A stretch of 29,106 bases of DNA from a virus, in the IMG/VR virus record IMGVR_UViG_3300042691_052111, positions 1 through 29,106 of that record; one strand, written 5' to 3'. Each line of letters opens with the position of its first letter. The first letter of the stretch is position 1. A model generated the notes under the pieces. That model was not told the DNA's origin. It did no database searches and saw nothing but the letters and a program-made list of their open reading frames with translations. Shown piece after piece: positions 1,212 to 17,661 of this stretch. The position numbers and the translations under genes were made by a program.

Positions 1212-2108
1212 TTATTTCTCCAAATATTCTAGTGTTTTTTTAAAACCGTCTTTAAAAGTTGTAAATACAAAATTATCTAATATTTTTTTTAATTCTTTAT
1301 TACTACCGTCTTTTCTATATTGACCATCTAAATTATTGTTAAAAACAAAATTAATTTTTTTATTGCTAATATCTTTAGCGATTTCACACATATCATAAAT
1401 TGATAAATTTTCGTCTGGGGCAACAATTATTGGTAATTCTGTATTGTGATTATACAATAATTCTGGTATAATTTTACATAAATCATCAACAAAAAGCTGT
1501 TGACGCAATGGTTTACCAGTGCCCCACATTTCTATAGTGTCTCCATTAGAAGCTTTATGTATTTTATTCGCTAATGCAGCTACAAAATGTGAATTAACAG
1601 ATTGGAAATGATCTTCTGGACCGTATATATTAGATGGACAAAAAGTAGAATAATTTAAATTATATTCTTTTCTGTAAGATAAGCATTGTATGTGTAATAG
1701 TCTTTTAGAATAGCCATATGACAAATTACTAATCGGTGGCGGTCCTAATTCTAGATCTTGTTCTGAAAAGGGATATGAATTAATAGTTTCTGGAAAAGCA
1801 CACGTACTAAGACTTGCCAATACTCTTTTAGTACCACTTATTCTAGCAGCTTCAACAACATTCGTATTTATAAATACATTTTTATAAAAAAATTCTCCTT
1901 GATGCTCATTGTTATCCTTTACTCCTCCAACTCTTGCTGCTAAATGAACAACGGCATCTGGTTTAATATCTTCAAACATTTTTAATGTTTGTTCATAAGA
2001 CATTAAATTATACTGTTTAGAAGTTGGATAAATCCATTCTGGTTTATATTTTTGTAATCTTTTACCTAAAAAACCAGAACCACCAGTAACTAGCACTTTA
2101 GTAATCAT
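1212..2108 (-). CDS. GDP-L-fucose synthase-like NAD(P)-dependent epimerase/reductase
   Basis: 298 aa from the ATG at 2108 with GAGGAAAA just upstream (the upstream in-frame TTG at 2120 would bury that site). It is an extended SDR fold: GGSGFLG nucleotide-binding motif near the N-terminus, SLSTCAFPE (catalytic Ser plus the Cys typical of GDP-fucose synthase), YGYSK (Tyr-x3-Lys), and SHFVAAL corresponding to the family's SHVIPAL motif with its active-site His, then WGTGKPLRQ. The family (Fcl/WcaG) epimerises and reduces GDP-4-keto-6-deoxymannose to GDP-L-fucose. The substrate could come from the Gmd-like protein at the far end of the same locus. A ColC-like (GDP-colitose) role is an alternative. 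Confidence 0.82.
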   Translation of the reverse strand: MITKVLVTGGSGFLGKRLQKYKPEWIYPTSKQYNLMSYEQTLKMFEDIKPDAVVHLAARVGGVKDNNEHQGEFFYKNVFINTNVVEAARISGTKRVLASLSTCAFPETINSYPFSEQDLELGPPPISNLSYGYSKRLLHIQCLSYRKEYNLNYSTFCPSNIYGPEDHFQSVNSHFVAALANKIHKASNGDTIEMWGTGKPLRQQLFVDDLCKIIPELLYNHNTELPIIVAPDENLSIYDMCEIAKDISNKKINFVFNNNLDGQYRKDGSNKELKKILDNFVFTTFKDGFKKTLEYLEK

Positions 2109-2925
2109 ATTTTTCCTCAAAAAAAGTACCTGCGTTACAGTTATTTTTAAAAAATTCTTTTGTTTCTTTATTAAAGAAATCAGTAATCCATAAATTAATA
2201 ATTTCTAAATATTGGTCTTTAGGTAAATTACCAAATCCTTCACAATAATGAAAAACTTTAATCTGTTTATTATCAAAGCTATATAATTTATTGTCTTTAA
2301 TATAATATTTTTCAGTATAAGGTTTCCAAGGTTTTGTATAAGGTTTAGCTATAATATTTCCTTTACATCTGACATTGTATATAACATTACTAGAAGCGTA
2401 TGGTCCATCAACAATAGTTGTTTTATATTTTTTATCCTTCCAAACTACTTCATTTAAACCACCTTGTTCAAAATATGTATCGTGAGAAAAAGATTTCTTT
2501 ATAATATCTAATAAAGCATCTGAATTATTAAAGCATACAACGTCTGCATTTAGATGCGTTTCTTTATCAGGCGTACAAAAATCTTTTAAACATAATTGAT
2601 ATGGATAATCTAAAGTTGCCAATATATCGTGTTCATCATTATCTATGAACTCAGATAATCTATCGCATGTAATAGTATCAGAGCCTAATATGATAACTTT
2701 TTTATATCCATGCTTAACCATTACTTCATAACCAAGCATGTATTTCAAAATACCAAATGATATATCATTTTTATAACATTTATAATTTTTTATATTTTCT
2801 TCTGTAATAAGAAATGTATTTATATTTGGATGAAAAACAGTAAAACTGTTATAAGCTACTTTAGAAATTTTTTCATATCTTTTACCAAAAGATAATATTA
2901 CACAACAAATATCTTTATCTACCAT
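2098..2925 (-). CDS. putative GT-A fold glycosyltransferase (GT8-like)
   Basis: 275 aa. The start ATG at 2925 has GAGGA upstream and overlaps the end of the preceding gene by seven bases. Features fit a GT-A nucleotide-sugar transferase: VIILGSDTI, with a DxT in place of the usual metal-binding DxD, then HLNADVVCFNN (like the NAGVMLFN of GT8), EQGGLNEVV (like the DQxxLN of GT8), and a C-terminal KVFHYCEGFG (His/Gly-rich, like the HYxGxxKPW loop). Donor and acceptor are unknown. The C-terminus overlaps the start of the fucose-synthase-like gene by 11 bases. The assignment to GT8 rests on motif order only. Confidence 0.65.
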   Translation of the reverse strand: MVDKDICCVILSFGKRYEKISKVAYNSFTVFHPNINTFLITEENIKNYKCYKNDISFGILKYMLGYEVMVKHGYKKVIILGSDTITCDRLSEFIDNDEHDILATLDYPYQLCLKDFCTPDKETHLNADVVCFNNSDALLDIIKKSFSHDTYFEQGGLNEVVWKDKKYKTTIVDGPYASSNVIYNVRCKGNIIAKPYTKPWKPYTEKYYIKDNKLYSFDNKQIKVFHYCEGFGNLPKDQYLEIINLWITDFFNKETKEFFKNNCNAGTFFEEKYDY

Positions 2926-3869
2926 TTATATTCCTCTTTATAAAAGTTTACAATATTCTGTATTTCTTTATCAAAAACTTTTTTACTATTCCAACCTAAA
3001 TTTTTTAGTTTAGAGCAATCGAGAGAGTATCTAACATCTTGTCCTATTCTTTTATAGGAATAATCAACATATTGTTTATAATCTACTTTCTCATTATAAA
3101 AACAATGAATAATTTTTTCTATTGTTTGATTATTGGTTTGTTCATAGCCAGCAGAAATATTGTACTTTTCATTTACTGTGCCATTATTTATAATATACAT
3201 TATAGCATCTGCTGTATCTTCCACATGTATCCAACTTCTAACTGGAGTGCCGTTATTGTGTAATTTAATCTTTTTGTTTCTTAAAAGATTATATACTGAA
3301 AGAGGAATAAGCTTTTCTGGATATTGTCTTGGACCGTAATTATTGGTTGGTCTAATAATTATATATTCTAGATTATACGTTCTACTCCAAGATGTCACTA
3401 GCATTTCAGCAGATGCTTTGGAAGCGGCGTATGGATTACTAGGATTTAATAAATCTTCTTCTTTAAATGAACCAGAATTAATATCACCATATACTTCATC
3501 AGTGCTAATTTGAATAAAAACAGGTTTTTCTACTGAATTACTGTGTTTTAGTCTTATCAATTCTAATAAGTTTCTTACTCCCTCTATATTAGAATCAATA
3601 AACGGCTTACTATTAACAATGCTATTATCTACATGTGATTCGGCAGCAAAATTTATTACATAATCACAATTTTTTAAATATTTTAAATTTTTTATATCTT
3701 CGTGAATAAAAGTAAAATTAGGATTTTTTTTAAATTCTTCAACAATATTTAAATTAGAAGCATAAGTTAATTTATCAATACCATATACTCTCCATCCTTT
3801 TTTTAATGCTAAAGATGTAAAATAAGATCCTATAAAACCAGCACAACCTGTAATGTAGACTATTTTCAT
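2919..3869 (-). CDS. dTDP-glucose 4,6-dehydratase-like protein (RmlB/RfbG type)
   Basis: 316 aa from the ATG at 3869; the longer reading to 3905 overlaps the upstream gene without a ribosome site. Motifs: GCAGFIGS (Rossmann), DKLTYASNL (typical of RmlB), FAAESHVDNS, STDEVYGD (Thr-Asp-Glu active site), YAASK (Tyr-x3-Lys), and RPTNNYGPRQYPEKLIP. The family converts an NDP-glucose to the 4-keto-6-deoxy sugar, the entry step to most deoxysugars. The sequence is closest to the dTDP enzymes. The neighbouring RfbH-type enzyme normally uses the CDP sugar, so the nucleotide used here is open. No nucleotidylyltransferase is visible in the window, so the NDP-glucose would come from the host or another part of the genome. 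Confidence 0.85.
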   Translation of the reverse strand: MKIVYITGCAGFIGSYFTSLALKKGWRVYGIDKLTYASNLNIVEEFKKNPNFTFIHEDIKNLKYLKNCDYVINFAAESHVDNSIVNSKPFIDSNIEGVRNLLELIRLKHSNSVEKPVFIQISTDEVYGDINSGSFKEEDLLNPSNPYAASKASAEMLVTSWSRTYNLEYIIIRPTNNYGPRQYPEKLIPLSVYNLLRNKKIKLHNNGTPVRSWIHVEDTADAIMYIINNGTVNEKYNISAGYEQTNNQTIEKIIHCFYNEKVDYKQYVDYSYKRIGQDVRYSLDCSKLKNLGWNSKKVFDKEIQNIVNFYKEEYKW

Positions 3870-3873
3870 AAGT

Positions 3874-5223
3874 TTAATAAAGATTAATCTTTGCAAAAAA
3901 TGCATCTACGACATATTTAATATAATTAAGTTTTTCTTCTGTTAAACCAGCAAAAGTTCCCAAGAAAAATGTATCTTTTGTAACTTTATTTGCAACAGGA
4001 AAAAGACTATTTAAATCGCCATATTCGCTAGCAAGTTTTTGATAGCCGGGATGAAATAAAATGTTACCACTAAAATACGATCTAGTTTGAACTCTATTGG
4101 CTTCTAGATAATCTACTATATCTTGTTTAGAAAATGGACAATTATCTTTTAAAGTCAATAAGAATCCAAACCAACAAGGATCAGAATTTTCCATAGCTTT
4201 TGGTAAATAAAAATATTTATCATATGGTTTAAATATGTTTAAAAGTTTTTCAAAATTATCTCTTCTGGCTTGTTCAAGAGTTGGTAACTTTTTAAGTTGT
4301 TCTAAGCCAATAGCTGCTTGAAGATCGAGTGGTTTTAAGTTATAACCAATTTCGTCAAAAACGTATCTATGATCATAAATGGCATCTGGCATACCGGGAA
4401 GCCAATTTCTAAATCTATTACCACAAGCAGTTTTGTCAGTTACGCATCCGGGTTTAGAAACATTGCAATAACACGCTCTTCCCCAATCACGAAAACTAGC
4501 TAAAGTCATTTTAGCCTGTCCATCATTTGTTGCTACAAAACCACCCTCTCCCATTGTCATATGGTGCGCGGGAAAGAAAGAGCAGGTAGAAAGATGACCA
4601 AACGAACCGAGCTTTTTATCTTTATACGTAGAGCCAAGGGCATCACAAGCGTCTTCTAAAAATACTAAATTATACTTTTTTACTAAAGCTATTAATCTGT
4701 CCATATCTGGTGGATTTCCAAGAACATGAGCAAATATTATCCCTCTAATCTCTGGGTCTTCTTGAAGTTTTTTTTCTACTTCGTCAAGATTAAGATTAAG
4801 GCTTGGTAATTCAACGTCTACAAATACTGGCTTAAGATTATTTTGTAATAATGGATTAATAGTAGTTGGAAAACAAACAATTGGAGTAATAAACTTAGCG
4901 CCATCTGGTAGATTGTATAATTTTTTAGATTTAGCGGCTGTTACCATTAACAGATTAGCAGAACTACCAGAATTGGTAAGAATACCTAATTTTTTTCCTA
5001 AAAGTAATGGAAATTTATTTTCAAATTCTTTAGAATTTTCTCCAAGAATAAGCCAACCGTTTAATAATGTATTAACAGCAGCAATATATTCTTTATCGTC
5101 AAACACCGGACCAGAATATGAAACCCAATCTTTTTCTTTATTCCAAGAAACATTATTTTTTTCATTAATATACTCAGAAATTAATTCTAATATTTGTTTC
5201 TTTTTATTCTCTAAGTTTGACAT
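3874..5223 (-). CDS. rfbH: RfbH-type PMP/[2Fe-2S] NDP-4-keto-6-deoxyhexose 3-dehydrase
   Basis: 449 aa, close to the ~437 aa usual for RfbH/E1 (CDP-6-deoxy-L-threo-D-glycero-4-hexulose 3-dehydrase). It has the DegT/DnrJ/EryC1 aminotransferase fold, but the PLP lysine is replaced: SFFPAHHMTMGEGG places His220-His221 where aminotransferases have Lys, as in E1. Cysteines lie at 193, 251, 253, 260 and 267. C193-x57-C251-x-C253 fits the known E1 iron-sulfur pattern exactly, and the last cysteine (before GNRF) is displaced by a six-residue insertion. The enzyme removes the C3 hydroxyl on the way to 3,6-dideoxyhexoses and needs a reductase partner (E3/RfbI) that is not seen here. ATG at 5223, AAAGGA upstream, 20-base overlap with the preceding reductase gene. 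Confidence 0.88.
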   Translation of the reverse strand: MSNLENKKKQILELISEYINEKNNVSWNKEKDWVSYSGPVFDDKEYIAAVNTLLNGWLILGENSKEFENKFPLLLGKKLGILTNSGSSANLLMVTAAKSKKLYNLPDGAKFITPIVCFPTTINPLLQNNLKPVFVDVELPSLNLNLDEVEKKLQEDPEIRGIIFAHVLGNPPDMDRLIALVKKYNLVFLEDACDALGSTYKDKKLGSFGHLSTCSFFPAHHMTMGEGGFVATNDGQAKMTLASFRDWGRACYCNVSKPGCVTDKTACGNRFRNWLPGMPDAIYDHRYVFDEIGYNLKPLDLQAAIGLEQLKKLPTLEQARRDNFEKLLNIFKPYDKYFYLPKAMENSDPCWFGFLLTLKDNCPFSKQDIVDYLEANRVQTRSYFSGNILFHPGYQKLASEYGDLNSLFPVANKVTKDTFFLGTFAGLTEEKLNYIKYVVDAFFAKINLY

Positions 5224-6037
5224 TTATAATTTCCTTTAATGATTGTTCTAAACCTTTAAAACGTATTGGTAATTGGTCAATAAGCTGTGAGCTACCAGTA
5301 TATTCTTTATCAATAGAATTATTAAGCATAGTAGCATGATTTTCGCTATTAGTATAATCAATAATTTTTTTTGCTATATCAGACAGAAAATATTTATTTT
5401 TATAAACTATATTTATATCTTTAAATAATTCTTTTTCTATATTATTAATATAATATTCTAATACTAGGCACAAATCATAGGCAGAAACAAAATCTATTTT
5501 CTTTTCTTTATTAATAATAATGCTTTTATTATTTTTAATATTATTTAATGAATTAGTTATAAATCTATTGCTGCTTTCATATAAGCCAAAGCAGCCAAAT
5601 ATTCTAAAGTTATAAATTTTTTTATGATTTATGCTTTCTCTAGCAATAATATTTTTTGATAATCCATAATAATCTATCGGATTACGATTGAATATTTCTA
5701 TCTCAGAAATATTGGATATTTCTAATCTACGATCAAAAGCTGCACCAGAGCAAAAATTAAATAGATAACCAAATTTATTTTTATTATCTAATAAATTATT
5801 AAACATATTTAGGTTTGAAACCAAAATATTATAATTATCAGTTATATCTCTTTTACCACCTACAACACAAGTATTTATTATTATATCGTATGTATTTTTA
5901 GAAAAATAATTATTAACAGATAATTTATTATCTAAATCTAGATCATTTCTATTTATATATTTAAAATTATGGTTATTAAAAAAGTTTTTAATTTCTTTTG
6001 CTAAGAAACTGTTTGATCCTATAACCAAAATATTCAT
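5204..6037 (-). CDS. NAD(P)-dependent SDR reductase/epimerase of the sugar locus
   Basis: 277 aa, extended-SDR type: MNILVIGSNSFLAKEI at the N-terminus (a degenerate GxxxxLG nucleotide loop), NTCVVGG, FCSGAAFD (catalytic Ser region) and YYGLSK (Tyr-x3-Lys), then FRIFGCFG. It resembles RmlD/WcaG-like reductases acting on keto-sugars. Lying between the TPP-enzyme pair and the RfbH-type dehydrase, it is a candidate to reduce the 4-keto or branched-chain keto product (as the YerF-type reductase does in yersiniose synthesis). This is inferred from context only. No clear ribosome site precedes the ATG at 6037, which follows the upstream stop by one base, suggesting coupled translation. Confidence 0.7.
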   Translation of the reverse strand: MNILVIGSNSFLAKEIKNFFNNHNFKYINRNDLDLDNKLSVNNYFSKNTYDIIINTCVVGGKRDITDNYNILVSNLNMFNNLLDNKNKFGYLFNFCSGAAFDRRLEISNISEIEIFNRNPIDYYGLSKNIIARESINHKKIYNFRIFGCFGLYESSNRFITNSLNNIKNNKSIIINKEKKIDFVSAYDLCLVLEYYINNIEKELFKDINIVYKNKYFLSDIAKKIIDYTNSENHATMLNNSIDKEYTGSSQLIDQLPIRFKGLEQSLKEIINVKLRE

Positions 6038-6038
6038 A

Positions 6039-6563
6039 TTAAAATTGATGCTGCTCTACAAGAATAGTAGATATACCATCTTCTCTCTCATAAGCAAACT
6101 TATAAGCTGGCAAAATTTGTTCTGCTTTTGTAAGTTTTACGACATTGACAGTTTTAAGAATACTACCAAATGCATCAGAAAAATCGCCTAGATGTTGTTC
6201 TTGTGGATTAATTGGTTCTGTAGCGCCAATAGCAACTCTTATAATTACTTTTGGCTTATAAGCCCCATCAGAAATAATTGATAATTTATCTAAATGATTT
6301 ACTAATTGGTCTGCTGCTAGCAAAAGAAAATTCCATCTAGGATATATGCTAACAGGAGTATAGCCAGTTAATGAAAGGCCAGTAGAAATTCCTAATTGTA
6401 AATTTTCTGCCACTGGCATTTCCATTTTTTTTGAATCATGAATTTTTTCAAATGTTTTTGCTATTGCAATTCCACCATATTTAATTCCTTGACCCAAAAA
6501 GATTGTATCGTTTTTTTCTGCCAACCAAAGCATTGCTTTTTCTAGCTCTTCTAAATAATTCAT
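6039..6563 (-). CDS. TPP-dependent dehydrogenase E1 beta-like subunit (pyrimidine-binding domain only)
   Basis: 174 aa from the ATG at 6563 (AGAGGAAATT upstream); longer readings lack a site. It matches the transketolase pyrimidine-binding domain of E1-beta proteins: MPVAENLQLGISTGLSLTGY carries the conserved Glu that activates the thiamine aminopyrimidine, YPRWNFLLLAADQLVNHLDK matches the F-x-D...A-x-DQI-x-N region, and PQEQHLGDF matches the QHSQ region. Normal E1-beta is ~325 aa; the C-terminal transketolase_C domain is absent. It forms a pair with the adjacent alpha-like gene, ten bases away. Pairs like this act in sugar pathways, for example AviB1/AviB2 of avilamycin, implicated in adding a two-carbon branch. 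That role here is inference. Confidence 0.78.
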   Translation of the reverse strand: MNYLEELEKAMLWLAEKNDTIFLGQGIKYGGIAIAKTFEKIHDSKKMEMPVAENLQLGISTGLSLTGYTPVSIYPRWNFLLLAADQLVNHLDKLSIISDGAYKPKVIIRVAIGATEPINPQEQHLGDFSDAFGSILKTVNVVKLTKAEQILPAYKFAYEREDGISTILVEQHQF

Positions 6564-6573
6564 AATTTCCTCT

Positions 6574-7182
6574 TTAAAATAAAACTTTTTCACCGATACC
6601 TGCATGCGGGAAGGCATTTTTATATTCATATCTGATGCATTTGGTAGATAATGAAGAAATTTTTTCTATATCATTACCCCATACTTCTCTTGTTGGAGTA
6701 GTGACACTAATCTTATTATCGGCTATAACAAATGTAATTGGTAAGTCATGAACCTCTGAATATCTTATACACTCTTGAACGGTGCCGGTATAATATGCCA
6801 TGTCACCAATAAAACACCAGACATGGTTTTTGCTGTTATTTCTTTTAATTCCTAAAGCAGTACCAGTAGCAATCGGAGCATTACCGCCAACTATTGCTGA
6901 AGAGATTATATTATATTCTTTAAAAGAAAGAGCTATAGATTTATTTCTCAATATAGCATCTTTTACTTTATCAGCTGGTACGCCTTTTAATAAGCACTCT
7001 AAATGGCTAGCCCAAGTAAAAAAACAATGATCATCGTGATTAATTTTTTTAAAAATATCAATTAGTATTTCTTCGTTTCCACCACGTAAATGTATTGGAG
7101 ACTTAATTTTTTTATCTTTAAAAAGTGCAAAAACTTCAAGTTCAAATTTTCTTAAATCGTCTTTTGTGAGTCCTGTGTCCAT
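6574..7182 (-). CDS. TPP-dependent dehydrogenase E1 alpha-like subunit (short)
   Basis: 202 aa from the ATG at 7182 (GGAGAG upstream). Family features: HLRGGNEEI (like HLSIGQEA of E1-alpha), FFTWASHLECLLKG, IVGGNAPIATGTALGIK, and the thiamine-diphosphate/Mg motif GDM-x27-N (GDMAYYTGTVQE...IADN; usual consensus GDG-x26-28-N). Normal E1-alpha is ~320-360 aa, so this is a reduced version. With the following beta-like gene it would form a heteromeric TPP enzyme in the cytoplasm. Position in a nucleotide-sugar cluster argues against central metabolism and for C-C bond formation on a keto-sugar. It overlaps the end of the GT2 gene by 31 bases. Confidence 0.78.
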   Translation of the reverse strand: MDTGLTKDDLRKFELEVFALFKDKKIKSPIHLRGGNEEILIDIFKKINHDDHCFFTWASHLECLLKGVPADKVKDAILRNKSIALSFKEYNIISSAIVGGNAPIATGTALGIKRNNSKNHVWCFIGDMAYYTGTVQECIRYSEVHDLPITFVIADNKISVTTPTREVWGNDIEKISSLSTKCIRYEYKNAFPHAGIGEKVLF

Positions 7183-7904
7183 TTTTCTCTCCAATAGTTT
7201 TGTATTATAATATCATATTTAATATTTGATTTGTGCATACCCCAAGTAGCTTGCTCTTCATGCCATCTATAATAATATCCTAACCATTGAGGAACTGGAA
7301 ATACAAAAATATTTTTATCAGCTAAATTAAAATACATATCATAATCCGCAGCACCGCTATATAGTTCTGGCTTTGTTTTTAACAAGCCGGTATCATATAA
7401 TTTTCGATTATATACAACAGTCGGTGTGTTAACAACACATTTTTTTAATAATTGTTGTTTAAAATCGCTTATTGAATTATAAGAATGATTAATAACTTGT
7501 AATTCTTTATTATTTTGCACACCTTTAATGCCACTTTGCAAAGCTAATATATTATTAGGGGCTTTAGAGAATATATCAATATTATTTTGAATAAAATTTG
7601 GATGTAAATAATCATCCGATGCCATTATATGGCAGTAATCTCCAGACATTTTTTCTAATGCTTTATCTCTTGCCTCTTCCCAACAGAATGGATAGATGTT
7701 TGGAGCAGTATCAATATTCAAACTGTTATATTTGTTTTCTTTTATTTTTTTTAAAAGATCATAACTGCCATCCGTACTCTCATTATCTATACAGAAAACT
7801 TCTATATTTTTATATGTTTGCGAATAAATAGAATCTATACATTGTTCAATGTATTTTACACAATTATATAATGGTACAATTATTGATACTTTTGGATTAA
7901 ACAT
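7152..7904 (-). CDS. family 2 glycosyltransferase
   Basis: 250 aa, classic GT2 (GT-A fold): VSIIVPLYNCVKYIEQCIDS at the start, IDNESTDGS (nucleotide-binding Asp), then GDYCHIMASDDYLHPNFI with the DD metal-binding motif near residue 98. The C-terminal part is hydrophilic with no membrane segment, so it is probably a soluble enzyme transferring a sugar to a glycan or a protein. The ATG at 7904 overlaps the previous stop by eight bases. Donor and acceptor cannot be told from sequence. Confidence 0.85.
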   Translation of the reverse strand: MFNPKVSIIVPLYNCVKYIEQCIDSIYSQTYKNIEVFCIDNESTDGSYDLLKKIKENKYNSLNIDTAPNIYPFCWEEARDKALEKMSGDYCHIMASDDYLHPNFIQNNIDIFSKAPNNILALQSGIKGVQNNKELQVINHSYNSISDFKQQLLKKCVVNTPTVVYNRKLYDTGLLKTKPELYSGAADYDMYFNLADKNIFVFPVPQWLGYYYRWHEEQATWGMHKSNIKYDIIIQNYWREKWTQDSQKTI

Positions 7905-11796: not shown

Positions 11797-13038
11797 TTAT
11801 AATTCCTTTACTCTATAAGATGTATAGTTTTTTCTTGTTTCCCAAGAACCATGTTTTTCATGAAATTCAGTGAATATTTTATCCCATCTATTACAAAAAT
11901 TATCAAAATTATAGTTCTTTAAAACATGTTGTCTACCCTTTTCACCAAGAGCTTTTCTTTGTTCTCTGGTCATATTGTGGATTTTTAACATTGCTTCAAC
12001 AACATCTTTATTAGATACTCTGTCTTCATAGATCCAAGGTGTATCTAAAGATCCAATTACAGCCTTGCTGCTAGGTTCTATTCCTACTCCAAATTCTTCT
12101 ACACCATCTGTAACTTGTTCGCGTAAACCACCAGTTTTATTAACTATTACTGGTGTTCCGCAAGATAAAGACTCTAAACAAGAAAGACCAAATCCCTCTG
12201 CATCGCTTATATTGATAGTACAATCAGCGGCATTATAGAACTTTGCCATTTCATTAGGATGAATTTTAGCTGGTGATAAAATAAAATTATTAGGTGTTAA
12301 TCCTAATTCTTCTGCAATTGCTATAAGATCTTGACCATTTGGATCTCTTGGATCGGTATGCATTAATAAACAAGCTTTATCATGCCCCACAATATCTAAA
12401 AATTCTTTAAACCACCAGACTACGCTACCACTCATTTTTCTACGAGCATTCCTATTAGTCCAGAAAAATAAAGTTTTATTTGGATTATAGATATTTTTAT
12501 AATCTTCAAAATCTAATGGTTTATAAAATTGTGGATCTACTGCATGAGGAAGGTATTCTTCTTCAACTTCTGGAGCGACTGTTCTTACAATATCGCTGGT
12601 AACTTTAGAAATAGAAACAATTTTATCATTACTAAGATAAAATGGTCTATTATAATTAGGATAAGGATAATTATCCCATACATGATAATACATCATGGGA
12701 ACATTAGCTCTTATTTCTTGTTCAATAGACCATAACCACGTATAAAATCTTGGATCTGTCATAAACCATAATATATCTGGTTTTTCTCTCATTAATAGAC
12801 TTCTGATGAGATCGGGGTTTCCATAGCCTTCTACTGGAAATATAACATAATCATCGCCATATTCATTAAACTTTATTGGTCTATTATCTGCATGTTTTAT
12901 GGCACCACCAAGAGAAATAATTTTATATTTTCCCGTTTTCATTAAACTTTCAAGAATATAATTAGTTTGTGTACCAACTCCGCTAGGTGATCTGGGATGA
13001 TCGCTAATCGTTAGAATCTTAATTTTTTTGTCTGACAT
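11797..13038 (-). CDS. GT4 family glycosyltransferase
   Basis: 413 aa, full-length GT-B enzyme. ISDHPRSPSGVGTQTNYI is the acceptor-side glycine loop, LFFWTNRNARRKMSG the donor-domain start, ISDAEGFGLSCLESLSCGTP the E-x7-E signature, and NKTGGLREQVTDG the following loop. A YHVWDNYPYPNYNRPFYLSN stretch in the linker is of a type I associate with phage-encoded and cyanobacterial GT4 proteins. AAGGA precedes the ATG at 13038, which overlaps the gmd-like gene by 20 bases. Confidence 0.85.
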   Translation of the reverse strand: MSDKKIKILTISDHPRSPSGVGTQTNYILESLMKTGKYKIISLGGAIKHADNRPIKFNEYGDDYVIFPVEGYGNPDLIRSLLMREKPDILWFMTDPRFYTWLWSIEQEIRANVPMMYYHVWDNYPYPNYNRPFYLSNDKIVSISKVTSDIVRTVAPEVEEEYLPHAVDPQFYKPLDFEDYKNIYNPNKTLFFWTNRNARRKMSGSVVWWFKEFLDIVGHDKACLLMHTDPRDPNGQDLIAIAEELGLTPNNFILSPAKIHPNEMAKFYNAADCTINISDAEGFGLSCLESLSCGTPVIVNKTGGLREQVTDGVEEFGVGIEPSSKAVIGSLDTPWIYEDRVSNKDVVEAMLKIHNMTREQRKALGEKGRQHVLKNYNFDNFCNRWDKIFTEFHEKHGSWETRKNYTSYRVKEL

Positions 13039-14008
13039 TTAATTTTTCCTTATCTAAATCTGAATTGTACATTAATTCTGCTAATTCTTTTAATGATGTT
13101 TTTGGATTCCAGCCAAGAACATTCATTGCTTTATTTGCATCAGCTAACAATAATGGTACTTCACTGGGTCTTTTATATTTTTCATCTATAACCACATAAT
13201 CCATTAAATTATAACCAGCTATTTCAGAAACGCAATTAATAAAATCTAAAATAGTTCTAGTTTTTCCTGTTCCTATAACATAATCATCTGGTTTATCTTG
13301 CTGTAGCATTAGCCACATAGCTTCTACGTATTCTTTAGCATAGCCCCAATCTCTTTTAGCATCTAAGTTTCCTAGCCTAAGTTCTGTTTGTAAACCTAAT
13401 TTAATACGTGCTGCTGCTTTTGTTATTTTTCTAGTAACAAATTGTTCGCCACGCCTTGGAGATTCATGATTAAATAAAATGCCAGAACAAGCAAAGATAT
13501 TATATGCTTTTCTATAGTTAATTACTAAATTATGTGCGAATACTTTAGAACAAGCATAAGGAGAAACTGGAGAAAGTATTGTATTTTCATTCTGTGGAGC
13601 ACTAATATTATCTCCAAACATTTCGCTAGTAGATGCTTGATAGAATTTAATATCTGGCTTTAGGTTTCTAATTGCTTCTAAACAATTTAGAACTCCTGTT
13701 GCATTTATACTAAGTGTACTCTCAGGAGTTTCAAAAGATATTCCTACATGACTTTGCGCTGCTAAATTATAAAATTCATCAGGTTTATGATGCTGTATCG
13801 CTCTCCAAATAGATGAAGCATCAGTAAGATCACCGTGTTCTATAATAAAATTAGGATAAGATAAAAGATGTTCTATATTATAGAATTTTTTATCTTCCAT
13901 AGAACTTCTTCTTACTAAACCAATAACTTTATAATTTTTTTCTAATAGTAGTTCTGCTAAATAACTACCATCTTGACCATTTACACCTGTTATAATCGCT
14001 GTTTTCAT
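13019..14008 (-). CDS. gmd: GDP-mannose 4,6-dehydratase-like protein
   Basis: 329 aa from the ATG at 14008 (AGGA upstream, TAATG junction with the preceding nuclease gene). Motifs: ITGVNGQDGSYLAE (GxxGxxG, with the QDG diagnostic of Gmd), GDLTDASS, NLAAQSHV, STSEMFGD (Thr/Ser-Glu active site), SPYACSK (Tyr-x3-Lys), NHESPRRGEQFVTRKI and LGNLDAKRDWGYAKEYVEAM, all close to the Gmd consensus. It converts GDP-mannose to GDP-4-keto-6-deoxymannose with bound NADP. It is somewhat shorter than the ~370 aa E. coli enzyme. Its natural partner, the GDP-fucose-synthase-like protein, lies 11 kb away at the other end of the locus. Confidence 0.9.
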   Translation of the reverse strand: MKTAIITGVNGQDGSYLAELLLEKNYKVIGLVRRSSMEDKKFYNIEHLLSYPNFIIEHGDLTDASSIWRAIQHHKPDEFYNLAAQSHVGISFETPESTLSINATGVLNCLEAIRNLKPDIKFYQASTSEMFGDNISAPQNENTILSPVSPYACSKVFAHNLVINYRKAYNIFACSGILFNHESPRRGEQFVTRKITKAAARIKLGLQTELRLGNLDAKRDWGYAKEYVEAMWLMLQQDKPDDYVIGTGKTRTILDFINCVSEIAGYNLMDYVVIDEKYKRPSEVPLLLADANKAMNVLGWNPKTSLKELAELMYNSDLDKEKLNVRQKN

Positions 14009-14781
14009 TAAGGACAATCCTTAGTATTATTATATTCACAATATTTACAATTTAACCTATTTTTAGGAAAAAAAGATTTATTAATACTATATAACGCTTT
14101 TAACAATAAGTTAAAAGCGTTTTGTGTTTTTTTATCTCCACTTGTAACACGAAATATTTCAACTTGATCTTTTTTAGCAATTCTTTTAAGAAGTGCAAAA
14201 TGTGTTTCAATATTTTTTGGATCTATTCCATGTTTTTGAGCATAAAAATATTTATAGAATGTTAATTGATATGTAATCATAGGATCGCTTTTCTTTTTAG
14301 CATCCCAACCCCATGCACAAGTTTTCCAGTCTATAATATGAACTTTACCGTCTTCTGTTTTAATAATTAAATCTATGTATCCTTTAAAGTTATAATTTAA
14401 TTCTGGGACTTGTTTAATCGATTCATAAATATCTTCTTCAGCAGCCAGCACAGAAAAGTTACCAAAATACTGCTTAAGCGCTGGTAATGCTAGCGCTGAT
14501 AGCATTACACCTTGTTCTTTCATTTCAGTAATGAGCTTTTCATCAAACTTAACATCATTGGGTACTTTTGATAGTTCATCATTAAATTTATTAGTAAAAA
14601 TTTCTATTTCATTAAGAGAATTATCAAGTAATTTTTTTTCACAAGCCTCATGAAGAGAAGTACCAAATATGGTATATTCGGTGTGTTTATATTTTTGTAT
14701 ATTTTCTACGTATGTTAGTTTATATTTAAACGGACAATCGTTCCAAGTCTTTAATGCAGAAAAAGAAATATGATTAGACAT
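14008..14781 (-). CDS. PD-(D/E)XK nuclease with probable Fe-S cysteines (RecB/Cas4-like)
   Basis: 257 aa from the ATG at 14781; the longer reading has no ribosome site. The N-terminus SFSALKTWNDCPFKYKLTYV is the conserved start of the RecB-family PD-(D/E)XK proteins of phages, GTSLHEACE is motif I, YKGYIDLII and HIIDWKTCAWGWD provide the catalytic Asp and D-x-K residues. One Cys near the N-terminus and three near the C-terminus (CKYCEYNNTKDCP) match the four-Cys iron-sulfur arrangement of Cas4/AddB-type nucleases. A role in DNA processing or recombination is likely. It is the first gene behind the consensus promoter at 14806-14834 and is followed directly by the glycan locus. Confidence 0.85.
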   Translation of the reverse strand: MSNHISFSALKTWNDCPFKYKLTYVENIQKYKHTEYTIFGTSLHEACEKKLLDNSLNEIEIFTNKFNDELSKVPNDVKFDEKLITEMKEQGVMLSALALPALKQYFGNFSVLAAEEDIYESIKQVPELNYNFKGYIDLIIKTEDGKVHIIDWKTCAWGWDAKKKSDPMITYQLTFYKYFYAQKHGIDPKNIETHFALLKRIAKKDQVEIFRVTSGDKKTQNAFNLLLKALYSINKSFFPKNRLNCKYCEYNNTKDCP

Positions 14782-17100: not shown

Positions 17101-17661
17101 TTATGCTTTCTTTTTATGATATTTCATTAAAAAATCATTCATAGCAATACTGCCCGCAACTGCGGCATTCATACTCCTAACACTTCCATATTGGGGAATA
17201 TAAACATATCTATCGCAAATAGCGAGTGTTTCTTGAGTAATACCAATTCCCTCTTCGCCAATAATAATTAGCGGATTCTCAGGCCACTCAAAATTATAAA
17301 TACTTTCTGCTTGAGGGACGCTATTTTCAAGAGCAACGAATGTATACCGCTCTTTAAGCTTTATAAGCTCTCCACGGTCCTTTAGATTAATTATGTCGGT
17401 ATAGTGATGCGTTCCAACGGTTCCACGCCTATCGTATTGTTTACGACCAAGATAGAACATTTCACGACCATTCATGGCGTTACATGAACGAAGAACGCTA
17501 GACAAATTAAAATCTCCAACAAGATTTTCCATCATAACTGCAAATGGAAAAGATTTTTGTTGGAGATCTTTTTTAATTAATTCTGTAGTCCACTGAGTAA
17601 GGCGGTCATGCTTGTACTTATCAACAATATTATAATTTTGAATGTTAGGGTTGGTTTCCAT
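17101..17661 (-). CDS. SpoU/TrmH-family (SPOUT) RNA 2'-O-methyltransferase
   Basis: 186 aa, a compact SPOUT protein of TrmL/TrmH length. Motif 1 is FNLSSVLRSCNA (51-62, with the conserved Asn and Arg), motif 2 LIIIGEEGIGI (131-141), motif 3 YIPQYGSVRSMNAAVAGSIA (154-173), which form the SAM-binding trefoil knot. The family methylates ribose 2'-OH in tRNA or rRNA; the target here is unknown. The long N-terminus (VDKYKHDRLTQWTTELIKKD) may bind RNA. A six-base-pair hairpin (GAGAAG/CTTCTC, 17665-17682) sits directly before the start codon and there is no clear ribosome site, so start control is possible. Confidence 0.85.
   Translation of the reverse strand: METNPNIQNYNIVDKYKHDRLTQWTTELIKKDLQQKSFPFAVMMENLVGDFNLSSVLRSCNAMNGREMFYLGRKQYDRRGTVGTHHYTDIINLKDRGELIKLKERYTFVALENSVPQAESIYNFEWPENPLIIIGEEGIGITQETLAICDRYVYIPQYGSVRSMNAAVAGSIAMNDFLMKYHKKKA

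Follow-up and report, generated by a model that had tools for sequence, protein, structure and literature searches.

Minimal TPP enzymes of the E1 type: a mainly viral family with a probable role in the branching of sugars

Sugar-branching enzymes and the locus in the window

Sugars with carbon branches have been described in a few O-antigens of bacteria and in some antibiotics. In antibiotic biosynthesis, C2 units are added to keto-sugars by E1-type enzymes of the alphaKADH2 group, and YerE places a C2 branch on CDP-4-keto-3,6-dideoxyglucose (PMC12247030; PMC4425429). For KbDH the C2 addition has been observed in vitro, with ketone analogues as acceptors (PMC12247030), and the subunits Pau11 and Pau12 count 325 and 345 amino acids, respectively (PMC4425429). 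A phage pathway of this kind was unknown to the author of the first-pass annotation, and none was found in the open-access literature.

The window, i.e. the whole stretch of 29,106 bases analyzed, is a linear virus record that includes PhoH, a ClpP-like head-maturation protease and an endolysin among its phage genes. A megablast search of the window against phage records yielded zero matches. A minus-strand run of genes (GT2, alpha, beta, SDR, RfbH and 4,6-dehydratase), separated by overlaps or gaps of ~10 bases, has an operon-like organization. The sugar-related features are:

7152..7904, minus strand: GT2 glycosyltransferase (Pfam Glycos_transf_2, 6.5e-23), overlapping the start of alpha
6574..7182, minus strand: alpha-like (PP) subunit, 202 aa (E1_dh, 1.6e-16; GDM-x27-N at about 6715-6807)
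6039..6563, minus strand: beta-like (PYR) subunit, 174 aa (PRK09212, 1.3e-10; Glu53 and His124; no transketolase_C domain)
5204..6037, minus strand: SDR reductase, Epimerase/RmlD-like (Pfam Epimerase, 8.4e-12; YGLSK motif read from the sequence)
3874..5223, minus strand: RfbH, C3-dehydrase (NF011936, 457 bits against a cut-off of 423)
2919..3905, minus strand: NDP-glucose 4,6-dehydratase, RmlB-like, with TDEVYG (TIGR01181, 9.8e-96, below the equivalog cut-off)
1212..2120, minus strand: GDP-fucose-synthase-like SDR (NF047922, 4.2e-45, below the cut-off)
13019..14017, minus strand: GDP-mannose 4,6-dehydratase (PF16363, 5e-121)

Longer versions of the alpha and beta ORFs (206 and 196 aa) differ from those listed solely by their upstream starts. 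The SDR, whose start adjoins the stop of beta, is a candidate for reducing either the branch or the 4-keto group. The identity of RfbH is clear from its score above the equivalog cut-off, the replacement of the PLP lysine by His (motif FFPAHHMTMGEGG at 4544-4578) and the presence of the Fe-S cysteines; its best PDB match is the CDP-4-keto-6-deoxyglucose 3-dehydrase 3bcx (3.2e-98), in whose alignment the His and Cys residues coincide, and its predicted product is a 4-keto-3,6-dideoxyhexose. The 4-keto-6-deoxy sugar that precedes it is predicted to be supplied by the adjacent 4,6-dehydratase, and the GDP-mannose 4,6-dehydratase is a second possible source of a 4-keto-sugar. Considering that the RmlB-like dehydratase resembles the dTDP-glucose enzymes yet scores below the equivalog cut-off, the nucleotide of the sugar in this phage is uncertain. 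The combination of reductase and RfbH had been noted in the first-pass annotation and equated with the steps of yersiniose-type synthesis; the 4,6-dehydratase, RfbH and SDR do accompany the pair, but a DdhD-type reductase, the partner of RfbH, was not seen within the 29-kb fragment. Heptose genes were not recognized in the locus either. The GT2 gene upstream of alpha is a conserved neighbor in the clade of the window.

Two observations on the window stand apart from the pair. In phage loci devoid of a TPP pair, the subfamily of its RmlB-like dehydratase still occurred together with a His-type DegT protein (11 of 14), so that dehydratase and RfbH make up a separate phage module, and positions 17101-17661 resemble, by sequence alone, a SpoU/TrmH-type RNA 2'-O-methyltransferase in a phage.

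A shortened E1-type pair and its family

The alpha subunit matched E1_dh over profile positions 6-171 of 300 and TIGR03182 (PDH E1-alpha) with 7.6e-21. The beta subunit by itself was recognized by the E1-beta model PRK09212 and only weakly by Transket_pyr (0.025). When family profiles were compared, alpha aligned with residues 44-214 of the 365 of E1-alpha 1ni4_A (7e-22) and beta with residues 5-174 of the 329 of E1-beta 3exe_B (4.7e-17). Because the latter profile stops at residue 174, the missing beta C-terminal domain is real, and judged from the profiles the C-terminal part of alpha and the C-terminal domain of beta are absent rather than diverged. Alpha and beta lengths are constant across the family, and the existence of hundreds of homologs of equal length excludes a chance or frame artefact. 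The closest PDB profiles were those of PDH and branched-chain E1, whereas transketolases were much weaker. The pair therefore has what identifies the E1 (PDH/BCKDH) fold, an alpha PP domain with GD(G/M)-x26-28-N and a beta PYR domain with a catalytic Glu, but it lacks the alpha C-terminal region and the beta C-terminal domain of PDH E1 proper, and it is set apart from transketolase both by sequence and by the absent C-terminal domain.

The TPP motifs said to be kept proved to be so. In the window the alpha motif (G126-D127-M128...N156) is found at about 6807-6715, beta Glu53 at 6407-6405 and beta His124 at 6194-6192. H31, H60, G126-D127 and N156 were invariant in 63 diverse alpha homologs, and the same holds for E48, P50, E53, R76 and H124 in 55 diverse beta homologs. 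Relative to the nearest relatives dN was around 0.22-0.25 and dS ranged from 1.0 to saturated, giving a low dN/dS; a frameshifted or decayed E1 gene was ruled out by this purifying selection and the constant lengths. The AF2 model of the window alpha is a complete domain (pLDDT 95.4, pTM 0.91) that superposes on human PDH E1-alpha with a TM of 0.78, and a fused cyanophage relative was modeled as a single PP-PYR unit (pLDDT 86, pTM 0.90), for which human transketolase was the best Foldseek match (TM 0.63). Alpha and beta are thus a predicted TPP enzyme with intact TPP determinants.

The pair had been regarded as a single odd split enzyme, a view that did not hold, as it belongs to a widespread and mostly viral family. 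PHROG 34187 (405 positions, 'unknown function') spans alpha and beta end to end and has as phage members S-SM2, P-TIM68 and one 735-kb uncultured phage; in the cyanophages S-SM2 and P-TIM68 the two subunits are fused and carry the label 'transketolase central region'. IMG/VR contained at least 571 loci with alpha, 322 with beta and 115 that matched the fused query (79 fused among the best 80 of these 115), where viral status is as assigned by IMG/VR. Three gene arrangements were encountered: alpha and beta adjacent, beta-X-alpha, and fused. Members in cellular genomes were rare (2/399, 1/292 and 1/289 of those sampled, three of these four being the seed genomes), and some MAG or single-cell contigs may themselves be viral, like a 6.5-kb Prochlorococcus contig (L015). 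Within the 399 genomes, all of one phylum, the two members reached 232 and 202 bits and the runner-up 109, and nearly all of the rest were full-length E1. Cellular members include an Albibeggiatoa contig and a Verrucomicrobiae contig.

In a tree of 86 concatenated alpha-beta pairs, to which AviB1/B2, Pau11/12 and KbDH do not belong, the 68 short forms were split from the 18 full-length E1 pairs with an SH-aLRT of 100, which places the pair outside those sampled. The plain acquisition of PDH or AcoA was ruled out by this tree and the shortened ends. The neighbors of the window in the tree are L019 and L020, and all three loci contain RfbH. On sequence grounds, then, the pair does not represent PDH fragments but is part of a monophyletic group of minimal TPP enzymes of the E1 type, most of whose members are viral.

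Genes that accompany the pair

Neighboring genes were clustered for 108 non-redundant loci and partners were counted in the 88 non-redundant loci of at least 12 kb. A His-type DegT C3-dehydrase was found in 45 of these, a SPASM radical-SAM protein in 21 and a Zn-alcohol dehydrogenase in 9, while 13 had none of the three; the three are mutually exclusive, none of the 88 loci carrying two. The corresponding numbers for 70 control loci with other phage sugar genes were 14, 1, 0 and 55, where it should be kept in mind that the co-occurrence counts are non-independent and that the control loci were picked by pattern-limited scans. The partner has switched at least 10 times on the tree. Among the DegT-family genes that adjoin the pair, the catalytic column holds a His in 56 and a Lys in 2. 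The His-type proteins are of two kinds, RfbH-like (nearest 3bcx) and ColD-like (nearest the ColD/WbdK entries 2gms/3gr9), which we take to yield 4-keto-3,6-dideoxyhexoses on different nucleotides. The SPASM gene often sits between beta and alpha, and the Zn-ADH sometimes (L119, L139) takes the same slot, a swap that parallels that of BtrN and Zn-dehydrogenases in 2-deoxystreptamine synthesis. The best NCBIfam match of the SPASM protein was far under the cut-off and its PDB matches were generic.

In the fused clade a Zn-ADH was present in 29 of 31 loci (directly upstream in 27) and an HldE-like kinase in 28. Loci without any of the three partners tend to have RmlC-like and SDR genes, a GmhA-like isomerase or GHMP kinases occur at some loci, and some bacterial members have heptose-kinase-like GHMP genes. 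Azospirillum ramasamyi has a full-length E1 pair followed by a ColD-type dehydrase, which hints at an older bacterial association. RfbH itself was ruled out as a marker of the pair, as none of 80 phage loci recovered with an RfbH query contained it (pattern-limited scan); accordingly, the linkage runs from pair to dehydrase and not in the opposite direction. A crude motif scan of the fetched loci found no AHAS-type TPP proteins, which speaks against a YerE-like alternative there.

Several individual loci deserve mention. A B12-binding radical-SAM enzyme, which perhaps methylates a branched sugar, was encoded in 30 of the 88 loci with the pair versus 1 of the 70 controls. On a 199-kb viral contig (L005:5145-7268) a radical-SAM gene lies between beta and alpha whose CxxxCxxC region is split by an intein-like insert (CLVAGTRVV...VVHNC), and an overlapping ORF may be a homing endonuclease. 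In the Verrucomicrobiae contig (L008:9929-11154) the pair, a ColD-like dehydrase and a GHMP kinase lie a few kb from flagellin-like genes, which suggests flagellin glycosylation. In L059, L064 and L103 an HldE-like kinase and a GmhA-like isomerase directly precede alpha-beta and a SPASM gene follows downstream, and in L073 (2441-14680) the order alpha-beta-SPASM-B12 radical SAM is found amid apparent virion structural genes. Both in L059 and in L073 the pair lies among other phage genes with no obvious glycosyltransferases close by, and for L059 this means that the product may not be a surface glycan.

Proposed function, alternatives and relation to known systems

Phages with this family probably use it to equip sugars with additional carbon branches. 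More specifically, we propose, with a probability of roughly 0.55, that the pair is a minimal TPP carboligase by which an NDP-keto-sugar receives a short acyl anion at its ketone, in the window toward a yersiniose-like octose. The two ORFs would form one heterodimeric (or alpha2beta2) enzyme with TPP at the alpha-beta interface, in which the GDM...N motif of alpha would hold the metal and diphosphate and beta Glu53 would activate the cofactor. The enzyme would decarboxylate a short 2-oxo acid, with pyruvate as the likeliest one, and pass the acyl anion to the ketone of the nucleotide-activated keto-sugar, probably C4 of an NDP-4-keto-3,6-dideoxyhexose delivered by the neighboring 4,6-dehydratase and RfbH. 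The SDR would then reduce the new acetyl branch to hydroxyethyl, and the encoded glycosyltransferases would put the branched sugar on a host or virion glycan, giving the predicted order 4,6-dehydratase, RfbH, TPP pair, SDR, glycosyltransferase. A keto-sugar acceptor is favored by the recurrent linkage, over dozens of loci, to C3-dehydrases of two kinds as well as to further partners that are likely to produce ketones. We infer that what the partners most simply share is an ability to make or prepare a sugar ketone, although the ADH could instead be a reductase; relatives would share the same core, with the keto-sugar prepared by a ColD-like dehydrase, a SPASM radical SAM or a Zn-alcohol dehydrogenase. 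Given that RfbH occurs without the pair, the locus may also make unbranched 3,6-dideoxyhexoses.

A different transfer, in which a ketose or hydroxypyruvate donates a ketol (hydroxyacetyl) unit in transketolase fashion to a keto- or aldo-sugar, with the chain extended or branched along a heptose/octose route, seems unlikely to us. It would fit the kinase and Zn-ADH of the fused clade, the GmhA-like isomerase or GHMP kinases at some loci, the transketolase match of the fused model and a proposal for miharamycin that combines split transketolases with an upstream oxidoreductase (PMC12247030), but the sequence profiles are nearest to PDH/branched-chain E1, the window locus is devoid of recognized heptose genes and the split clade prefers C3-dehydrases. 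Given the HldE-like kinases of the fused clade and the GHMP genes of some bacterial members, the acceptor there may nevertheless be a heptose or sugar phosphate. That the carboligase acts in general on a non-sugar or sugar-phosphate acceptor, the C3-dehydrases merely reflecting shared glycan loci, is still less probable: L059 and L073 are not obvious glycan clusters and RfbH is widespread without the pair, but the 56:2 ratio of His to Lys, the exclusivity of the partners, their repeated switching and the different control loci all argue against it.

That beta has lost its C-terminal domain argues against a role in a lipoyl-E2 complex. A reduced E1 of the PDH/acetoin type, whose acetaldehyde or acetyl product would serve the acetylation of sugars or the energy metabolism of the host, has in its favor the homology to PDH E1 and AcoA, but considering that loss, the lack of E2/E3 among the neighbor families examined (a subset of ORFs), the position outside full-length E1 and the recurrent link to sugar enzymes, we regard it as improbable. 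Least probable is a degenerate or non-catalytic remnant, to which the GDM in place of GDG and the Ala at the nearly invariant alpha Arg58 and Glu154 positions of the window might point; Met is the majority form at the third motif residue (45/63, with Gly in 16), Ala at 58 recurs in 6/63, and the core TPP residues are all invariant, the dN/dS low, the ORFs intact and the fold confident.

Carboligation to a keto-sugar can be extended, at slightly less than even odds, to a so far undescribed class of minimal TPP carboligases, mostly viral and devoid of the C-terminal domain, that would use interchangeable ketone-making partners to produce a variety of carbon-branched sugars destined for glycans of the host or virion, and to which some viral pentose-phosphate 'transketolase' genes may belong. 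If true, phages would have an unrecognized way of altering surfaces or covering their virions, and the family would offer unusually small carboligases of the E1 type with a possible tolerance for ketones, as sought for tertiary-alcohol synthesis. 'Transketolase' labels in viral metabolic surveys can then mask glycan enzymes.

With respect to known systems, AviB1/AviB2 and YerE had been put forward as precedents, and they are so in chemistry and pathway logic but not as close family matches. The alphaKADH2 enzymes (AviB1/AviB2, Pau11/Pau12, KbDH-alpha/beta) are likewise TPP enzymes of the E1 type with two subunits, encoded in sugar clusters with a deoxysugar-pathway context, for which transfer of a C2 unit to a ketone was proposed or shown; they are, however, of full length and from actinobacterial antibiotic clusters, whereas the phage pair is ~200/~174 aa, mainly viral and associated with a C3-dehydrase, rSAM or ADH, a separation based on length. 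YerE/ErwE (yersiniose, erwiniose) share the inferred acceptor class, CDP-4-keto-3,6-dideoxyglucose after DdhC/RfbH, and thereby the pathway logic, but are single-chain flavoproteins of the unrelated AHAS-type decarboxylase superfamily, unlike the two short E1-type chains. PDH and branched-chain 2-oxo acid dehydrogenase E1 have the fold, TPP motifs and alpha/beta organization in common with the pair, yet possess a long alpha C-terminus and a beta transketolase_C domain and work with E2/E3. The cyanophage 'transketolase central region-containing protein' of PHROG 34187 (SSM2_198, AIR93527), to which no function was assigned, is of the same family, with alpha and beta fused into about 400 aa and adjoining a Zn-ADH and an HldE-like kinase, not RfbH.
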